Source of the DNA: Sulfurospirillum oryzae
Lineage (GTDB): Bacteria > Campylobacterota > Campylobacteria > Campylobacterales > Sulfurospirillaceae
NCBI RefSeq assembly: GCF_025770725.1
Contig: NZ_JANZKZ010000002.1
Coordinates: 558,001 to 622,000, forward strand
DNA length: 64,000 nucleotides
Direction of reading: 5' to 3'
Shown here in pieces: positions 20,877 to 58,304 of the stretch. Positions within the stretch are counted from its first letter, which is position 1, and the number at the start of each line of letters is the position of its first letter. The position numbers were made by a program, and so were the translations under genes. The notes below the pieces were generated by a model that made no database searches, was not told where the DNA came from, and was given only the letters and a program-made list of their open reading frames with translations.

Positions 20877-20912
20877 ACTTTACATGTAAGGATTTTTCCT
20901 TACATGTAAAGT
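20877..20912 (+). terminator. Perfect hairpin after htpG built from two TTACATGTAA palindromes
   Basis: 20877-20892 is the exact reverse complement of 20897-20912 (16 bp) around a TTTT loop; each arm contains TTACATGTAA. It starts six bases after the htpG stop. Likely terminator, although no T-run follows. The stretch from 20913 to 21095 holds no gene I can support. Confidence 0.6.
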
Positions 20913-23772: not shown

Positions 23773-24165
23773 CTACGGACGATAGGGTTCAGGAACATAA
23801 CCTTTAGACATAAGCGATTTAATGCCACCTTTTAAATTTACAACTTTATAACCTTGTTTTGAAAGCATTTCAGAAACAGCGGCACTCCTGCTTCCTGTAC
23901 GGCAGATAAGTGCGAACTCTTTATCTTTACTCACATATTTATCAAGTTCTTTCGTAAACGCTTCTGCGTTATAACGACCTTGTTCGTCAAAGAAAGTGAT
24001 AGGAATTGCATTTTCAACTAACCCTGTCTCTTTCCATTCGGGGAGTGTGCGAATATCGATGATTTTCATGCCACTTTTAACAACCTCTTCACTCGCATCA
24101 ATATGACGTAATTCGGCAAAAAGAAATGTTGAAAGAAGGGATATAAGAAGTAAAATTTTAGACAT
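23773..24165 (-). CDS. Exported rhodanese-like domain protein
   Basis: 130 residues: a signal peptide (about 1-17, ending LFA), then one rhodanese domain with [13 protein letters not shown] and the active-site loop [10 protein letters not shown], whose Cys would carry a persulfide. It is probably a periplasmic sulfur-transfer protein. It is encoded just upstream of yyaL on the same strand. The gap between it and the upstream helicase gene contains the 140-bp palindromic repeat. Confidence 0.88.
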
Positions 24166-24242
24166 GGAAAACTCCTATTGTTTTTAGGAGTTATTTTATC
24201 TCTTTTAAGTTAGCAGAACTTTAAAAATTATAGGCTTTTTCG

Positions 24243-24382
24243 TAACCTATGAAAAGATAAAGAGTTCACTAAGAGTGCGTTAATTTTTAAAACTCAAAAT
24301 TGAGTCATAGCCAAAGCTATGGCGATGTTTTTAGTTTTGAAAAGTGATGTGCGATAAGTGATACTCTTTTTTCAATAGGTTA
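24243..24382. repeat. Palindromic repeat A, copy 1 (140 bp)
   Basis: Quasi-palindrome with arms TAACCTAT / ATAGGTTA at its ends, AGAGT/ACTCT and TCACT/AGTGA inside, and a small central hairpin CATAGC-CAAA-GCTATG. A second copy of equal length lies at 54444-54583. The copies agree over most of their length, but differ in the stems in ways that keep pairing. It lies between the UvrD-like and rhodanese genes. Confidence 0.85.
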
Positions 24383-24391
24383 TGCAAAAGT

Positions 24392-26422
24392 CTATTGTAC
24401 CATTCCCGCTTCAACTAAAAATGGAGAATGGGTATAGCTAATCTTTTTAATTTTGTCATACTTCGCGTAAGAGAGAATTAGCATGTCTTTAGCACGCGTG
24501 GTTGCCACGTAAAAAAGACGGCGTTCTTCTTCCAAACTGCCACCTTTTTGCATCAGTTTTCGGTTAGGGAAACGCCCGTCCATAAGGTCGATGACATACA
24601 CCTCTTTAAACTCAAGCCCTTTACTCGCATGAATACTGAGCAGGTTTACACCCTCACCTTCGCTCATTTCATTGCTTCCCAAAGTAAGTGCGTTTAAAAA
24701 ACGCTCGCTTGAAGCGTAACTGCTCGCCAAGTCTTTTAGTAGGTGACCTTTGCGAAAAATACGCGCACGTGCTTCTGTTTTTAATTTTTCATCAACACTA
24801 CCATCTTTTTTGATGGTACGCTTAACCGCCAGCACTTCAGCAATCGCGCTAAAAACTTCCGAGCTTAAAACATGATTGATAAGGCTTTGGGGTGTTTTAA
24901 TTCGCGTCGCATGCTTCATAAACTTATAAAATTGATGTAGAAATTTGGCTCCATCAGTCGTGAGTTTTGGATGTTTTAAAATAGGACTTGAGAGAAAAAG
25001 CTCTTCAAAGCCTAGATTGTAAAAACGACTCACACTGCCAAGATCAAGAATGTCATCAAAAAGCCCTAATTGGTGGTTTTTAGCACGTTTTTTAAAAATA
25101 TCTTCGACATCGCCTCTTGGATGAAAAAAGCCTTGGTAAATGTTGCCATCTCCCAGTTTAAAAAGACCATCAAAAAGCTCTTTTGAGAGCGAACTTCCCA
25201 CACCTCTAGCGTATTCAAAGGTATGGATAAATGCCATCATATCTTTAGGATTCACCACAACACCCACAAGATCGAGCATCGCTTTCACTTCCGCCGAGTC
25301 AAAAAAGCTAATGCCACCTTTTCGTTTACAGGCAATCCCTTGTTCCCTAAGCGTTGCTTCAATACCATCGGCTGTGGAGTTGTTTCGAAAAATAACGGCA
25401 ATATCCGCAGGTGCATGTGTGGAGTGTTTAATCAGTGAAGATATAGACTGATACTGTGAAAAAAGCTCATCATAGATCAACAGTTTTGGTGCTTCAAACG
25501 CCCCATCGCGTGTTACTTCAAGCCTTTTTTCATACAGTCTTGGATTTTTTTCAATGACACGGTTGGCTAAAGAGAGAATTTTATGTGAAGAGCGGTAGTT
25601 TTTATTGAGTGTAAAGACATTGGCATTAGGATAACGTGTACCAAAAGAGCCTATAATGTCGATATTTGCGCCATTAAACGCATAAATACTCTGGTCATAA
25701 TCTCCCACACAAAAAAGTGACTTTGAGCGAAAAGCGTCAATAAGCGAGCCTTGCAACGTATTTGTATCTTGGTACTCATCAATCAAGACTTCATCAAAAC
25801 TAAGCGTATCGGTCGTTTTGAGTGTATCACGCATTAAGATCAAAAGATCGTTAAAATCAACATACCCAAATTCTCGTTTGAGCGCTTGAAACTCTTCAAA
25901 AATGTCTTCATAGATGTCAAAAAAGAGACCATGTTCACTGTCGTTTGACTCAAGCCATTCTGTAAAGCTTTGCGTTACCGTACTGTTCTGGTAGAGTGAA
26001 AAAATATCGTAAAGATAAGCCGCACTGTAGGCTTTTGCACCCGAATCTATATGGTCAAATCTGCGTCTATCGTGAATACTTTTAAGTAAAATTTTGAGGT
26101 CTTTTGGTTGTTTGAGAACAATATTTCGTCCAAGTTTTTTCAAAAGACGGTAACTCACCGCATGAAACGTACCTGATTCAATTTGCGAGGTAATATTTTT
26201 ACCAAAGAAAACACCGACACGCTCAAGCATCTCAGCGGCAGCTTTGTTGGTAAAGGTAAGCAGTAAAATACGAGATGGCTGAATGCCTTGATGTAAAAGA
26301 TGCGCAATTCTCGCTACAATCGTCGAGGTTTTACCCGTTCCAGCACTGGCAATAATAAGATTATGTCCTGAGGGTGCAGTTGCAGCACTTTTTTGCTCAG
26401 CATTGAGTCGACTAAGAGGCAT
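24392..26422 (-). CDS. UvrD/Rep/PcrA-like DNA helicase
   Basis: 676-residue superfamily 1A 3'-5' helicase for repair or replication restart. Motif I ASAGTGKT (25-32) after LNAEQKSAA (Q motif), motif II FDEVLIDEYQDTN, motif III CVGDYDQSIYAFNGA, motif V HASKGLEFKEVYVIDLMDGR and motif VI ERRLFYVATTRAKD are all visible. Which of UvrD, Rep or PcrA it equals cannot be decided from sequence alone. It is on the same strand as the ATPase operon upstream. Confidence 0.93.
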   Translation of the reverse strand: MPLSRLNAEQKSAATAPSGHNLIIASAGTGKTSTIVARIAHLLHQGIQPSRILLLTFTNKAAAEMLERVGVFFGKNITSQIESGTFHAVSYRLLKKLGRNIVLKQPKDLKILLKSIHDRRRFDHIDSGAKAYSAAYLYDIFSLYQNSTVTQSFTEWLESNDSEHGLFFDIYEDIFEEFQALKREFGYVDFNDLLILMRDTLKTTDTLSFDEVLIDEYQDTNTLQGSLIDAFRSKSLFCVGDYDQSIYAFNGANIDIIGSFGTRYPNANVFTLNKNYRSSHKILSLANRVIEKNPRLYEKRLEVTRDGAFEAPKLLIYDELFSQYQSISSLIKHSTHAPADIAVIFRNNSTADGIEATLREQGIACKRKGGISFFDSAEVKAMLDLVGVVVNPKDMMAFIHTFEYARGVGSSLSKELFDGLFKLGDGNIYQGFFHPRGDVEDIFKKRAKNHQLGLFDDILDLGSVSRFYNLGFEELFLSSPILKHPKLTTDGAKFLHQFYKFMKHATRIKTPQSLINHVLSSEVFSAIAEVLAVKRTIKKDGSVDEKLKTEARARIFRKGHLLKDLASSYASSERFLNALTLGSNEMSEGEGVNLLSIHASKGLEFKEVYVIDLMDGRFPNRKLMQKGGSLEEERRLFYVATTRAKDMLILSYAKYDKIKKISYTHSPFLVEAGMVQ

Positions 26423-29978: not shown

Positions 29979-30010
29979 GATTGCCCCCTTATTTTTCATC
30001 CAAATTCTTG

Positions 30011-30100
30011 ACACGCTTTTAAAGCAAAGCTTTAAAAACTACGTTAACACTGAGTTCTCTTCGGCAGAGAGCCCACGCACCTTTGGTGCTTTTACTTTTT
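30011..30100 (-). repeat. Dispersed repeat B, copy 1 (90 bp)
   Basis: Its reverse complement matches 56563-56652 with nine mismatches in 90 bases by hand alignment (about 90%). It contains three potential hairpins: AAAGC-AAA-GCTTT, a CTCT...AGAG stem, and GCACC-TTT-GGTGC. It lies between the PIF1-like helicase gene and the 29469-29978 gene, with a TTACATGTAA at 30112-30121. Confidence 0.85.
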
Positions 30101-52733: not shown

Positions 52734-54344
52734 ATGACAATTTCAAAACAACTGATGACTATGCTAGCTATCGCAATTATAGGTATCTTTTTAATCTTCG
52801 GCATAGCAATAACAAAGATGGATATAGTCTATGAAAAAGCAAATTATGGTAACGATAATTCTCTGCCAAGTGTTTTAATTCTCAATCAAGCCATCCAAGA
52901 AGCCTTTAGAGTGAGACTTTACATGTGGCAACATCTTGCTCAAACAGATGTGGCACAAATGGAAAAAATTGAAGAAACGATTGCAAAGACAAAAGCTAAT
53001 ATTAATGAAAATTTTAAAAAATATGAACCTATGATTTCTGATGACACAGACAAAGCATTGCTAGCAAAGGATCGTGAAGTTGCAGCTGCTTATTATGCCT
53101 TTTTAGACAAAGCAATCAAACTCTCAAAAGCCAATCAAAAAGATGCATCACGAGATTTTATACTTAATAATACAGCTATTGGATTAGAATTTACAAACGT
53201 CTTTGTCGAACACATGAACTATAATGAAAAACTCGCGCACGAAGGTGCTCAAATTGGTTTAGACACTAAAAAAAGCGCAAATATATTGATGATCTTTTTA
53301 TCATTGGGTGTCATTATTGGTGTTATCTTTATTAGCGTACTTATCCGCAACAACATCATGCAAGGTGTACATCTTGTACGTGATAGCATTGGCAATTTTG
53401 TTCGCACTAAAGAGCTTAATTTCCGTATTAACTATGAAAAACAAAATGAAATCAAAGAGATGGTGGATAGTTTCAATTCACTGGTTACTACATTAGAAAG
53501 CACCATTGTCGATGCTAAAGCTTCTTCAAGTGAGAATGCTTCCGTTTCGCATGAACTTAGTACTACCAGCATGCAAATAGGACGCAATGCAGAACAAAGT
53601 TCTGCTATCGTCGAAAGTACTATCCATGAAATCAACACTATCAAAACCTTTGTTCAAGAAACAGCAACACTCTCAGAAAGTATGAAACAAAGCATCTCTA
53701 CAGCTGGTAATCGCCTTGATAATGCTAAAGATGAGATTATTACGCTACGCAATGAAGTTGAATCGGCTAGTCAAGCTGAAACGGCTCTTGCCCAAAAACT
53801 TGAGCAGATGAGCCATGATGCAGAACAAGTCAAACAAATCTTAACGGTTATCTCCGACATTGCTGACCAAACGAACCTTCTAGCTCTTAATGCAGCCATT
53901 GAAGCGGCACGTGCAGGTGAACACGGACGAGGTTTTGCGGTTGTTGCTGATGAAGTACGAAAACTGGCTGAGAGAACTCAAACTTCATTAACAGAAATCA
54001 ACGCAACCATCAATGTCATTGTCCAATCCATTATTGACTCGTCAGAGCAGATGGGAAGAAATGCTAAAAACATCCAAAGGCTTTCTGATGTTTCAAGTGG
54101 TGTGGAAACAACCATCCTAGGAACAACACAGGTCATGCAAGAGAGCGTTGCAGCAGTGACAACCAGTGCTCAAAACTCACGAAAAATTTCACAAGATACT
54201 GACAAAATCGTTGATATGGTTACCAACATCAATACTCTAACAAGCCAAAATGCAAGAAGTGTTGAAGAGATCGCAGCAGCAGCAGATCATCTCTCACGTT
54301 TAGCTGAAAATCTTAACAACAAGCTCAATCAGTTCCGCTCATAA
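52734..54344 (+). CDS. Methyl-accepting chemotaxis protein with 4-helix-bundle-like sensor
   Basis: 536 residues: transmembrane helix 1 (about 9-28), a helical periplasmic domain (about 30-180, 4HB_MCP-like), transmembrane helix 2 (about 184-206), HAMP region, and a signalling domain with [20 protein letters not shown] as the CheA/CheW contact tip. The ligand is unknown. No pentapeptide CheR tether is seen. Its signalling tip is nearly identical to that of the chemoreceptor at 56715-58304. Confidence 0.95.
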
Positions 54345-54383: not shown

Positions 54384-54443
54384 ACTACTACGCATTTTCA
54401 TCTTAATGGTATAATACGCGCAAAATAATGGAGACTTCTTTTA

Positions 54444-54583
54444 TAAGCCTTGAAAAGATAAAGAGTTTGTTCAGAGTGCGTTAATTTTTAAAACTAAAAA
54501 TTGAGCCATAGCCAAAGCTACGGTGATATTTTTAGTTTTGAAAAGTGATGTGCTATGGGCAATACTCTTTTTTCAATGGCTTA
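54444..54583. repeat. Palindromic repeat A, copy 2 (140 bp), in the ABC-F leader
   Basis: Same length and orientation as copy 1 (24243-24382). Ends are TAAGCC / GGCTTA. AGAGT/ACTCT and TTGTTC/GGGCAA replace the inner stem of copy 1. The central hairpin is CATAGC-CAAA-GCTACG. It sits between a TATAAT at 54410-54415 and the ABC-F start at 54616, so it is probably in the untranslated leader. Confidence 0.85.
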
Positions 54584-54615
54584 GGAAAGAGGTCTAATAA
54601 AATAAGGTACTTAAT

Positions 54616-56571
54616 TTGGCACTTTTAGATTTAATTGGCATCAACAAAGCTTATGAAACTCAAAAAATTTTAACTGACGTTGATTTTTCACTCCACGAAG
54701 GTGAACGCGTTGCAATCATTGGCAAGAATGGTGGTGGAAAATCAACCCTTATGAAGATTGTCTTTGGCATTTTGGAAGCTGATGAAGGCAGACGAATCGT
54801 TCAAAAAAATATTAAAGTAGGCATGTTAGACCAAACCCCTCGTTTTAAAGAGGGAATGAATGTTAAAGAAGCGATCGAAGAAGAGTTGAAAGAACTCAAA
54901 ATGGCGAGACTTCGTTATGAGGAGGTCATCAAAACATTAGAGCATGATTATCATAATGAAGTACTACTTGCAGAGCAAAGTCAACTGGTTACCTTTTTGG
55001 ACTTACATGATGCGTGGAGTTTGGATGAAAAGATCGAGCAGGTCTTGCAAGAATTTGATCTTAAACAATTCGAGCAAAGTGATGTCAACCTTTTAAGTGG
55101 TGGTGAGCAACGCCGTGTCACACTTGCAGGGCTTATTCTTCAAAAGCCTGATATTTTGCTTCTAGATGAGCCAACCAACCATTTAGATGTCTATATGGTT
55201 GAATTTTTAGAGCAGATGATTTTAAAGTCTAGGTTCACCCTCCTCTTCATTTCGCATGATCGCTATTTTATCGACCATTTAGCAACGCGTACCATTGAAA
55301 TCGATGATGGAAAAGTGAGGAGCTTTGAAGGCGGTTATGAAAATTATCTTACATGTAAAGAGCAACTCATCCTTTCTTTGCAAAAGCAACATGAGAATCT
55401 ACTCAAATACCTCAAAGGTGAAGAGGAGTGGCTAAGACGTGGTGTAAAAGCAAGACTCAAACGCAATGAAGGGCGTAAACAAAGAGTATTTGAACTGCGA
55501 GAGTCTGCTAAAAAGAATCCTTCTTTGGTACGAAAACTAAAGCTTGAATTGGAGAGAGAAAAGCATAATTTCAATGGTGAGAAAATCATCAATAAACAAA
55601 AGATGCTCTTTGAAATCTATAATATTCATAAAAAACTGGGCGATAAACTCCTCATTAAAGACTTTAGTACACGTATTTTACAAAAAGATCGCATTGCTAT
55701 TGTAGGTAAAAATGGTGCGGGAAAATCGACTTTACTGAAAATTTTACTGGGTGATTTGAGCGTTGATAGTGGTACTTTTAACCGAGGAGAGTTTAAGATT
55801 GGTTATTTTGATCAACAACGTATGATGCTAGATGACAACAAAAACCTAATAGAAACTTTTTGTCCCAATGGTGGAGACCGTGTCGATGTCAAAGGCAAAA
55901 ATTTACACGTTTTTGGCTACCTCAAAGACTTTCTCTTTCCCAAAGAAGATCTGAACAAAAAGATTGGTATTCTCAGTGGTGGTGAAAAAAATCGTGTGGC
56001 TTTAGCCCTGCTCTTTTCACAAGAAGTAGATTGTCTCATCCTTGACGAGCCAACCAATGATCTTGATATTCCAACCATCAATATATTAGAAGAGTACATC
56101 CAAAGTTTCGGCGGTGCTGTTATTTTTGTTAGCCATGACCGTTACTTTGTCGATAAAATTGCAAGTAAACTCTATGTCTTTAAAGGCGAAGGGATTATTG
56201 AAGAGAGCTATCAAAGTTACAGTGAATACCTAGAGATTGAAAAAGAGATCAAAGAGCTCGATGCCATGGAGACAAGTCAAGAAGCTCCTTGGATTAGTAA
56301 AGACGAAAATAAAACACAAAAAGCAAAAGAGAGTGTTCCAACCAAACTGAGCTACAAAGAACAACGCCTACTTGAAACGCTACCACTGCAAATTCAAGCG
56401 CTTGAAGATGAGATTGCTACTACGAAAAAATGCCTTGAAAATCCTGAGTGTTACCAAAAAATTGGGCTTAGTAAGCTTAGTCAAACGTTAGAAGAAAAAG
56501 AGGCACTCTTAGAGCCAATGATTGAAGAGTTATTAGAAATAGAAGAAAAAGCAGAACTTTGTAAAAAGTAA
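54616..56571 (+). CDS. ABC-F family ATPase (Uup-like)
   Basis: 651-residue soluble protein with two ABC domains: GKNGGGKSTL with LLSGGEQRRVTLAGL and DEPTNHLD, then GKNGAGKSTL with ILSGGEKNRVALALL and DEPTNDLD. An interdomain linker (about 240-320, rich in Arg/Lys/Glu) and a C-terminal coiled coil (about 580-648) are as in Uup. ABC-F proteins act at the ribosome E site in translation rescue or antibiotic protection. The start is TTG at 54616, where the family N-terminus begins. Its stop codon lies in the first bases of repeat B. Confidence 0.92.
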   Translation: MALLDLIGINKAYETQKILTDVDFSLHEGERVAIIGKNGGGKSTLMKIVFGILEADEGRRIVQKNIKVGMLDQTPRFKEGMNVKEAIEEELKELKMARLRYEEVIKTLEHDYHNEVLLAEQSQLVTFLDLHDAWSLDEKIEQVLQEFDLKQFEQSDVNLLSGGEQRRVTLAGLILQKPDILLLDEPTNHLDVYMVEFLEQMILKSRFTLLFISHDRYFIDHLATRTIEIDDGKVRSFEGGYENYLTCKEQLILSLQKQHENLLKYLKGEEEWLRRGVKARLKRNEGRKQRVFELRESAKKNPSLVRKLKLELEREKHNFNGEKIINKQKMLFEIYNIHKKLGDKLLIKDFSTRILQKDRIAIVGKNGAGKSTLLKILLGDLSVDSGTFNRGEFKIGYFDQQRMMLDDNKNLIETFCPNGGDRVDVKGKNLHVFGYLKDFLFPKEDLNKKIGILSGGEKNRVALALLFSQEVDCLILDEPTNDLDIPTINILEEYIQSFGGAVIFVSHDRYFVDKIASKLYVFKGEGIIEESYQSYSEYLEIEKEIKELDAMETSQEAPWISKDENKTQKAKESVPTKLSYKEQRLLETLPLQIQALEDEIATTKKCLENPECYQKIGLSKLSQTLEEKEALLEPMIEELLEIEEKAELCKK

Positions 56572-56652
56572 AAGCACCGATGGTGCGTGGGCACTCTGCC
56601 GAAGAGAACCTAGTGTTAACGTAGTCTTAAAAGCTTTGCTTTAAAGGTGTGT
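56563..56652 (+). repeat. Dispersed repeat B, copy 2 (90 bp)
   Basis: Reverse-oriented relative of 30011-30100, with about 90% identity by hand alignment. It has hairpins GCACC-GAT-GGTGC and AAAGC...GCTTT and a CTCT...AGAG stem. It overlaps the last codons and the stop of the ABC-F gene. Right after it, TTAGAGTT (56653-56660) pairs with AACTCTAA (56668-56675). Confidence 0.85.
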
Positions 56653-56691
56653 TTAGAGTTTTGTAAGAACTCTAATGATAGTAGAGTCAAA

Positions 56692-56714: not shown

Positions 56715-58304
56715 TTAAGCTTTAAACGTTGAAAGCGTAGAATCTAGGTTTTGAGAAGACTCAAGCATCGTTTGTGAAATACGTGAAAGCTCTTCGGCAA
56801 TTTTTTCATTGTTATCAGATAAACTTAGTGTTCGTTTCATCTGTTCCATCATCTGATTGGTGAGGTGGGAAATCTCAACAACCTTTTTCGATGCTTTCTT
56901 AGACACATCAATTGACTCTTGAGTACGATCTTTGGTCTCTTCAGTAGCATTTTGAACATCAAATGCATTTTGAGAAATATGACTGATATTTTCAGCATTG
57001 ACTTCCATATTTGCGCTTAGTTGCGTCACACCTTGAACAATGACACTAATCGTTGCATCAATCTCAGCAAGTGATTTTTGTGTACGCTCTGCTAGCTTTC
57101 TTACCTCGTCAGCCACAACCGCAAACCCACGACCATGTTCACCTGCACGAGCCGCTTCAATCGCTGCATTAAGAGCTAGAAGATTGGTTTGATCAGCAAT
57201 ATCTTTAATCATTGCCAACACACCTTTGATCTGGTCAGTTTGTGAAACAACATTTTGAATTTGATGCGCCATATCTTGCTCTTGTTCACTCGCATCATTG
57301 ATCTTCTGAACCACATCATTAAGGGCTATACTCATTTTTTCCAACACGCTAAATGATGCGCTATTGTCTTCTACTGTGTGAATGGCAAGCTCTTCGGAGA
57401 GATCCAAATCAGCTTCAATATCTTTCATAAGATCAAAGGACATCTTGATTTGATGGGCTTGATCTACAACACCTTTGGAAAACTCAACGGCATTCGCATT
57501 AAGTGTTTCGCCCGTATGCTCAACACCTTGTGAAATTTTTTGTGAACTTAAAATAATCGACTGAATTTTTTCAATAAATATATTGATATATTTTGCAATA
57601 TCACCCATTTCATCTTGGCTTTTAATATGCACACGCGCTGTCAAATCTCCATTACCACTCGAAAGATCTTTAATTCTCTCAAGTAGAATTTCCAATGGAT
57701 TACCCACAACCCGTTTAAGTACTAACATAATAAGTACAGAGGTGACCATTAATGAGACCGCAAAAATAGTGATAAGCTTCCAGCTTACAGCCCCAATATA
57801 CGAATCTATGTCAGCAAACGAAAACGTCATATCCATAACACCTAAAACATCGCCTTTTTGAGAAGTCGCATGACATGCTAAACAGTCCTGCTCTGCTACT
57901 AAAGGTTTCAAAAGTCTTAAACGGTGACCTTTATCATCATCAAGGGTAACACTATGTTGTACTGGATTTTTAAAAATATCCATAACGGCTACATCTGTTG
58001 ATGGTTTGGCGCTAATACCAAACGTATCAATAACCACTTGAGATTGATGAATTTTAAGCTCTTTAATCCCTTTCATCTCACCTGCATCTTGCAATGACTT
58101 TTCAATCAAAGCACGATCGCCCAAATTCATTGCGGCGCGCACGGTTTGAAAAACAGATTGACTCAACAAATTGAGATTATTCTCACTCTGAATTTGAGAA
58201 GACTTTTTAAACTCACCTACAATAAAAAACTGTAAGATAATAAAACTACCGAGTAACAGAGGGATAAGCGTTAACCCTATTTTTAAACCTATGCCTTGTC
58301 GCAT
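56715..58304 (-). CDS. Methyl-accepting chemotaxis protein with periplasmic heme c site
   Basis: 529 residues: transmembrane helix 1 (about 9-29), a periplasmic sensor domain with a heme c attachment motif C141-LAC-H145, transmembrane helix 2 (about 173-196), HAMP (about 197-250), and a signalling domain with the [20 protein letters not shown] tip. The sensor resembles Tll0287/DUF3365-type heme domains. It may sense redox state, oxygen or nitric oxide. Its GTG or ATG start overlaps the end of the STAS-like gene by 16 bases, which points to coupling. Confidence 0.9.

Follow-up and report, generated by a model that had tools for sequence, protein, structure and literature searches.

A palindromic MITE family with IS5-type ends in Sulfurospirillum and the origin of compensatory changes in its hairpin

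Two palindromic repeats in the window (the whole 64-kb stretch of DNA analysed here) are, on the reading that we consider very probable, copies of a MITE with IS5-type ends that was cross-mobilised and whose arms were then kept matched by template correction, by purifying selection, or by both. The terminal inverted repeats (TIRs), the target-site duplication, the empty sites, and a partner insertion sequence (IS) with the same ends together point, at the level of sequence comparison, to a MITE cross-mobilised by an IS5-family transposase. For Sulfurospirillum, the result is a MITE family whose partner IS can be identified, with insertions of differing age and with empty sites; covariation in a DNA palindrome is usually taken as proof of RNA function, and here the signs of arm copying, of inversion, and of selection can be told apart in individual copies.

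The initial annotation had placed a 140-bp palindromic repeat at two places on the + strand and had pointed to long identical stretches. Both repeats are located where it put them, with such stretches (84% identity between copy 1 and copy 2 in a repeat search of the window), but the limits it gave were too narrow: the inverted repeat runs approximately 12-14 bp further on each side, giving lengths of 164 and 166 bp (Table 1). Alignment of all copies gives the consensus ends AGACTTCTTTCATAACC...GGTTATGAAAGAAGTCT, also given as TAGACTTCTTTCATAACCC...GGGTTATGAAAGAAGTCTA. In size and coding, the copies are as expected of a MITE (<600 bp, no coding capacity), and the ORF lists of the window contain no ORF of at least 70 aa within copy 1 or copy 2. 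At the right end of copy 1, the stop codon of the helicase gene, TAG on the minus strand, coincides with the last three bases of the element, CTA; at copy-1 empty sites the stop codon is TAA (TTA on the + strand), that is, the TAG is made by the element end.

Table 1. Coordinates of the two window copies, their ends, and their neighbouring genes
Feature	Position	Strand	Detail	Basis
MITE copy 1	24231..24394	+	164 bp, terminal TA at each end counted	family alignment
Copy 1 left terminal inverted repeat	24231..24247	+	TAGGCTTTTTCGTAACC	predicted pairing with right end; aligned to family TIR TAGACTTCTTTCATAACC
Copy 1 right terminal inverted repeat	24378..24394	-	GGTTATGCAAAAGTCTA on +	
Copy 1 conserved tip hairpin	24296..24331	+		R1 covariance model, 58.5 bits
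MITE copy 2	54431..54596	+	166 bp	family alignment
Copy 2 left terminal inverted repeat	54431..54449	+	GAGACTTCTTTTATAAGCC	
Copy 2 right terminal inverted repeat	54578..54596	-	GGCTTAGGAAAGAGGTCTA on +	
Copy 2 conserved tip hairpin	54497..54532	+		R1 covariance model, 50 bits
Copy 2 left target-site duplication AAT	54427..54429	+	followed by GG, then AGAC element end	empty-site alignment
Copy 2 right target-site duplication AAT	54596..54598	+	first A is also terminal A of family TIR as written	empty-site alignment, family-wide ANT test
TATAAT, putative -10 box of ABC-F gene	54410..54415	+	kept in relatives' empty sites (conserved ATGGTATAATACGCGC)	
ABC-F type ATPase gene, 3' of copy 2	54616..56571	+	TTG start	ORF; assigned from translation
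UvrD/Rep-like helicase gene, 3' end abutting copy 1	24392..26422	-		ORF; assigned from translation
Rhodanese-like gene, other side of copy 1	23773..24165	-		ORF; assigned from translation

The two window copies belong to a larger genomic set. The source genome (2.63 Mb, 11 contigs) has 11 full-length copies and two end fragments, together with short derivatives (L057, L060, L072, L073) that keep the family ends at a length of approximately 33-50 bp, and many more copies are present in congeners. From the source genome and relatives we retrieved 59 full-length copies; among 120 relatives searched, full-length copies occur mostly within Sulfurospirillum, with 75%-identical elements in G050, a genome of another family. 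The TIRs come as matched inverted pairs, and a reversed control pattern had almost no matches. The copies show no preference in orientation relative to flanking genes (20 ++ vs. 17 --). Gaps between convergent genes hold 2 of 54 classified copies, vs. approximately 15% of the intergenic length of the window, the numbers being small.

Family-wide, the copies carry a 3-bp target-site duplication, mostly AAT or ATT, the feature for which the initial annotation had proposed a search. In 29 of 59 copies (AAT or ATT in 25 of the 29), the 3-mer that precedes the left AGAC also follows the right GTCT, vs. a mean of 12.2 and a maximum of 21 for re-paired flanks used as a control; about half of the copies are without an exact 3-bp duplication, and the flanks of copy 1 fit poorly. 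A 2-bp TA duplication was considered and was replaced by a 3-bp ANT duplication, because the left TA is preceded by the same base that follows the right TA. Empty sites, likewise proposed as a check, were found in relatives for both window copies, each of which is thus polymorphic between filled and empty. The copy 1 site is empty in G012, G020, G016, G014, G009, and others (queries made of the joined flanks match continuously), is filled in G004, G008, G015, G019, and G023, and carries a short remnant only in G006. Since copy 1 is present in several congeners, we conclude that its insertion is old. Among the 24 Sulfurospirillum genomes searched, copy 2 is present in the source genome only, and the empty site in relatives places its insertion between the conserved TATAAT and the ABC-F gene start; with TATAAT as the putative -10 box, copy 2 probably lies within the 5' leader of the ABC-F gene.

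The partner IS is a 905-bp element in G019 that is bounded by the MITE ends, with an identical 16-bp core; that is, the MITE has terminal inverted repeats in common with an autonomous element, the two having little in common past the terminal 17-18 bp. The IS has two ORFs, which overlap and encode HTH_Tnp_4 and DDE_Tnp_4 domains (PF13613 and PF13359, above cut-offs), and the two ORFs consecutively match the NCBIfam IS5-family model NF033581 transpos_IS5_4, each below the whole-protein cut-off. A 3-bp ANT duplication is a feature of the ISL2 group of IS5, and AAT flanks the 905-bp IS on both sides in all four copies read. By these features the partner IS is assigned to the IS5 family and, probably, to its ISL2 group. 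The IS was located at L105:1501-2409 and G019:C1:1494186-1495094, 2132187-, and 2147927-; it looks active, and one copy is within a flagellar gene beside fliG. An IS in G300 that has the same ends, is internally deleted, and has a truncated transposase ORF illustrates how derivatives with these ends can arise. Neither a DDE_Tnp_4 match nor a relative of the G019 IS protein was found in the source genome, and a simple 14-bp inverted-repeat search found no TIRs for 63%-identical IS5-type transposases of G008, G014, G016, and G011. According to the hypothesis of cross-mobilisation, an IS5-family transposase encoded elsewhere would recognise the 17-18-bp MITE ends and would insert the 166-bp palindrome at A/T-rich sites with duplication of 3 bp (ANT), transposition being attributed to a G019-type IS. 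The suggestion of a MITE-like mobile hairpin in the initial annotation is borne out by the TIRs shared with the IS5 family, the target-site duplication, the filled/empty polymorphism, and the multiple copies.

A literature search that included Sulfurospirillum plus MITE, judged on titles, found no description of the family; the family is apparently undescribed, its kind being well known (NEMIS, ERIC, RUP). The Correia/NEMIS elements, which are palindromic MITEs like the Sulfurospirillum repeat but unrelated to it in sequence, make a 2-bp, TA-type duplication. We know of no partner IS for ERIC/IRU/RU-1, whereas the Sulfurospirillum MITE, also unrelated to it in sequence, shares its ends with a partner IS. 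Correia/NEMIS of Neisseria are approximately 105-155 bp, are transcribed with their neighbours, and are proposed RNase III targets; ERIC/IRU/RU-1 of enterobacteria is a 127-bp intergenic repeat that may affect mRNA stability in an orientation-dependent manner; and RUP of Streptococcus pneumoniae is a 107-bp MITE tied to an IS by common terminal repeats (PMC2229807). The partner of RUP is IS630-Spn1, with a TA target, whereas that of the Sulfurospirillum MITE belongs to the IS5 family, with a 3-bp duplication. The 905-bp partner IS resembles ISCaa2 and ISCaa3 of the ISL2 group (914-916 bp, two overlapping ORFs; PMC3196728) in size, in its two overlapping ORFs, and in HTH_Tnp_4 / DDE_Tnp_4; the Sulfurospirillum repeat, in contrast to ISL2-group IS, carries no gene and matches the IS in its terminal 17-18 bp only.

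Both window copies fold far more stably than shuffled sequences. With 8 bp of flank on each side, fold energies are -61.7 kcal/mol for copy 1 and -66.5 kcal/mol for copy 2, vs. means of -26.5 and -28.9 after shuffling (z approximately -10.5); the full copy 2 fold has -76.0 kcal/mol on the + strand vs. -50.0 on the - strand. The initial annotation had noted paired changes in a terminal and an inner stem. The family consensus of the terminal stem is TAACCC/GGGTTA, relative to which copy 1 (TAACCT/AGGTTA) has replaced C-G by T-A in the last pair and copy 2 (TAAGCC/GGCTTA) has replaced C-G by G-C two pairs earlier; the paired changes are thus real and still pair, being two changes, one in each copy. 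The changed inner stem also pairs in both copies (TTCACTA/AGTGAT in copy 1, TTTGTTC/GGGCAAT in copy 2). In a wider set of 56 distinct copies, with a hairpin of 72 pairs, 96.2% of pairing cells pair, and 25 of the 72 pairs have changed on both sides, vs. 14.2 +/- 2.1 in shuffled data (none of 500 reaching 25) and 4-12 when the structure is slid; for the covariation score, the values are 0.162 vs. 0.094 in the control. The covariation accordingly exceeds chance and extends to the whole family, and neither chance-level covariation nor a lone pair of copies with non-compensatory changes describes the data. The further step from paired changes to a selected fold is unsafe for a palindrome in DNA, where a switch of template from one arm to the other yields compensatory changes without selection, and covariation alone is therefore no proof of a selected RNA; selection is nevertheless plausible from the slow divergence of orthologues and the one-strand G-U asymmetry described below.

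Template switching between the arms of inverted repeats homogenises the arms and can invert the spacer, as documented in yeast (PMC8604942); it can also give rise to hairpins and preserve them, with compensatory changes, as documented in RNA genes (PMC8794818). In the MITE family, 32 parsimony events alter both partners of a pair on one branch, including CG to GC, AT to TA, TA to GC, and AT to CG, and many such events are transversions without a wobble intermediate. In L227, the copy of G008 at the copy-1 locus, the central approximately 60 bp is inverted in place relative to orthologues, and the 19-21 differences between L227 and its orthologues fall to 5-7 once the centre is re-inverted; loops are altered in orthologues L187/L243 and L207/L218. 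The double transversions and the L227 inversion have the appearance of marks of template switching. The covariation might therefore be wholly mutational, with template switching homogenising the arms of a hairpin that has no cellular function, a reading to which we give a substantial chance, if one short of even. Multi-base and transversional double changes without intermediates, the inversion in place, the changed loops, and the precedents in RNA genes and yeast inverted repeats all favour it; but it does not predict the one-strand G-U excess, and it is at odds with the finding that, between species, the elements usually differ less than the genes that flank them, since unbiased copying should not slow divergence.

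In the copy-1 group (without the inverted L227), the element is 92-96% identical and adjacent gene segments approximately 80-86% in most comparisons; at most other loci in common the element is 95-100% identical, above its flanks. The element is more alike than its flanks at L203/L206, L223/L226, L187/L243, L208/L238, L195/L234, L209/L210, and L213/L214, and also at L222/L241, where, however, right flanks align poorly; the exception is the locus L207/L217/L218, where the element is no slower than its flanks. Concerted evolution or gene conversion among copies was considered as the source of the high orthologue identity and was rejected, because in nearly all comparisons a copy is closer to its orthologues than to its paralogues (with near-ties for the G015 copy); unbiased arm correction, by argument rather than by simulation, should not lower the divergence rate either. 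Ascertainment is unlikely to explain the slow divergence, because 75%-identical copies are detectable, though wholly deleted copies are missed. The slower change relative to surrounding genes hints that some resident copies may have acquired a use.

The + strand is the stabler fold in 59 of 59 copies (mean -75.9 vs. -52.5 kcal/mol for the - strand), the reason being that a number of near-invariant non-Watson-Crick pairs read G-U on the + strand and A-C on the - strand. With DNA parameters, too, one strand is favoured (-41.0 vs. -34.0). Changes assigned as Watson-Crick to GU number 67, vs. 33 for Watson-Crick to AC (binomial p = 4e-4, for a test picked post hoc and for related copies), and orthologue comparisons give G-U vs. 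A-C 27:6, in a set partly overlapping the 67:33 set. On terminal branches, the G-U excess is present in the ++ context (24:7) and absent from the -- (7:6) and -+ (7:8) contexts. Host-gene orientation was rejected as a cause of the strand asymmetry, since the copies are not biased in orientation and the fold energies of ++ and -- copies do not differ significantly; mutation biased by strand would also yield such a G-U excess. Because the tests were post hoc, the copies are related, and mutation bias may be at work, we regard RNA-level selection as plausible only.

We entertain, more tentatively, the reading that resident copies are domesticated RNA hairpins, transcribed within leaders or 3' ends and controlling the mRNA stability or expression of neighbours, a role of the sort suggested for NEMIS and ERIC. 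It would account for the slow divergence at common loci, for a + strand that is the stabler in every copy, and for a preference for G-U over A-C that is strongest in copies co-oriented with flanking genes, and it accords with the position of copy 2 between the conserved TATAAT and the ABC-F start; it sits poorly with the lack of orientation preference, with copy 1, both neighbours of which are on the - strand, so that the better-folding strand is antisense there, and with the absence of copy 2 from all other species searched. Movement as single-stranded DNA by a RAYT/IS200-IS605 transposase, that is, the REP-type element suggested by the initial annotation, we hold to be highly improbable: the repeats are palindromic, intergenic, and multicopy, and folding with DNA parameters likewise favours one strand, but the copies are 166 bp rather than 20-40 bp, occur in both orientations, and have an ANT duplication and IS5-type TIRs in common with a DDE-transposase element. 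It is scarcely credible that the repeats, although strong hairpins in intergenic DNA, are ordinary transcription terminators or a classical structured RNA family spread by gene duplication alone; identical ends and interior recur at unrelated loci with target duplications, and empty sites, which such an origin does not predict, exist. The window contains no Rfam match at the gathering threshold, matches in relatives are sub-threshold chance matches only, bar a tRNA in one flank, and no terminator-like T-tract follows the main stem of copy 2. On the preferred reading, that of a cross-mobilised MITE with IS5-type ends, arm-templated correction would copy a change in one arm to the other, at times inverting the centre, and purifying selection would preserve the hairpin, most likely as + strand RNA, in some of the resident copies, the two processes not being mutually exclusive.

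A symmetric 3x3 internal loop, UGA/GAU, predicted to form tandem G-A pairs plus U-U, interrupts the innermost hairpin, TTGAGTCATAGCYRAAGCTATGGCGATG. A covariance model of this tip hairpin matches 11 of 11 source-genome copies and has clear matches in other Campylobacterales genera, with no match in most genomes of the class. In the other genera, the tip hairpin sits inside longer, two-hairpin elements. Those at L154, L155, L317, L319, and L327 are 266-269 bp, resemble the MITE in their TIRs (same or near-same) and tip hairpin, and differ from it in being longer, in having two large hairpins, and in an otherwise different interior; in others the ends differ. Since the tip hairpin occurs inside differing elements, we conclude that it is a module common to different MITE families. 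We offer as speculation, and as more doubtful than otherwise, the combined proposal that resident MITE copies are under G-U-tolerant purifying selection as + strand RNA and diverge less than neighbouring protein genes, and that the tip hairpin is carried between different-sized MITE families of several Campylobacterales genera. The right arm contains an extended -10 facing outward (TGCTATAAK) that might have served as a portable promoter, an idea dropped because the fourth base of the motif varies freely.

L154, L155, L317, L319, and L320-L329 form a wider set of approximately 270-300-bp two-hairpin intergenic elements in Campylobacterales with the tip motif in common, part of which has the same IS5-type ends and part of which has others, e.g. 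AACTGACCTTACGCACC in L329. L150 and L151 (99-101 bp) have the MITE ends and a different palindromic interior with a GATTGCTTCGTCATT...GCAATGAC repeat. The window also contains inverted repeat pairs at 30002-30100 / 56563-56661 (99 bp at 88%) and at 53856-54026 / 57033-57203 (171 bp at 80%), the latter overlapping a chemotaxis gene (52734-54344) and possibly reflecting gene paralogy. A further palindrome, TTACATGTAA, occurs 31 times in the window vs. 0.14 expected (e.g. at 20880, 20900, 22028, 36452, 42015, and 50587), with 18 of the 31 sites in predicted genes and 13 in intergenic DNA, which makes up approximately 8% of the window. A literature search found the string in published work only on other subjects. 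The count of the sequence TTTACATGTAAA is 549 in the source genome and ranges over 14-792 per genome across 24 Sulfurospirillum genomes, vs. 0-3 for a reversed control, and the TTACATGTAA repeat resembles highly iterated palindromes, e.g. HIP1, or uptake sequences.
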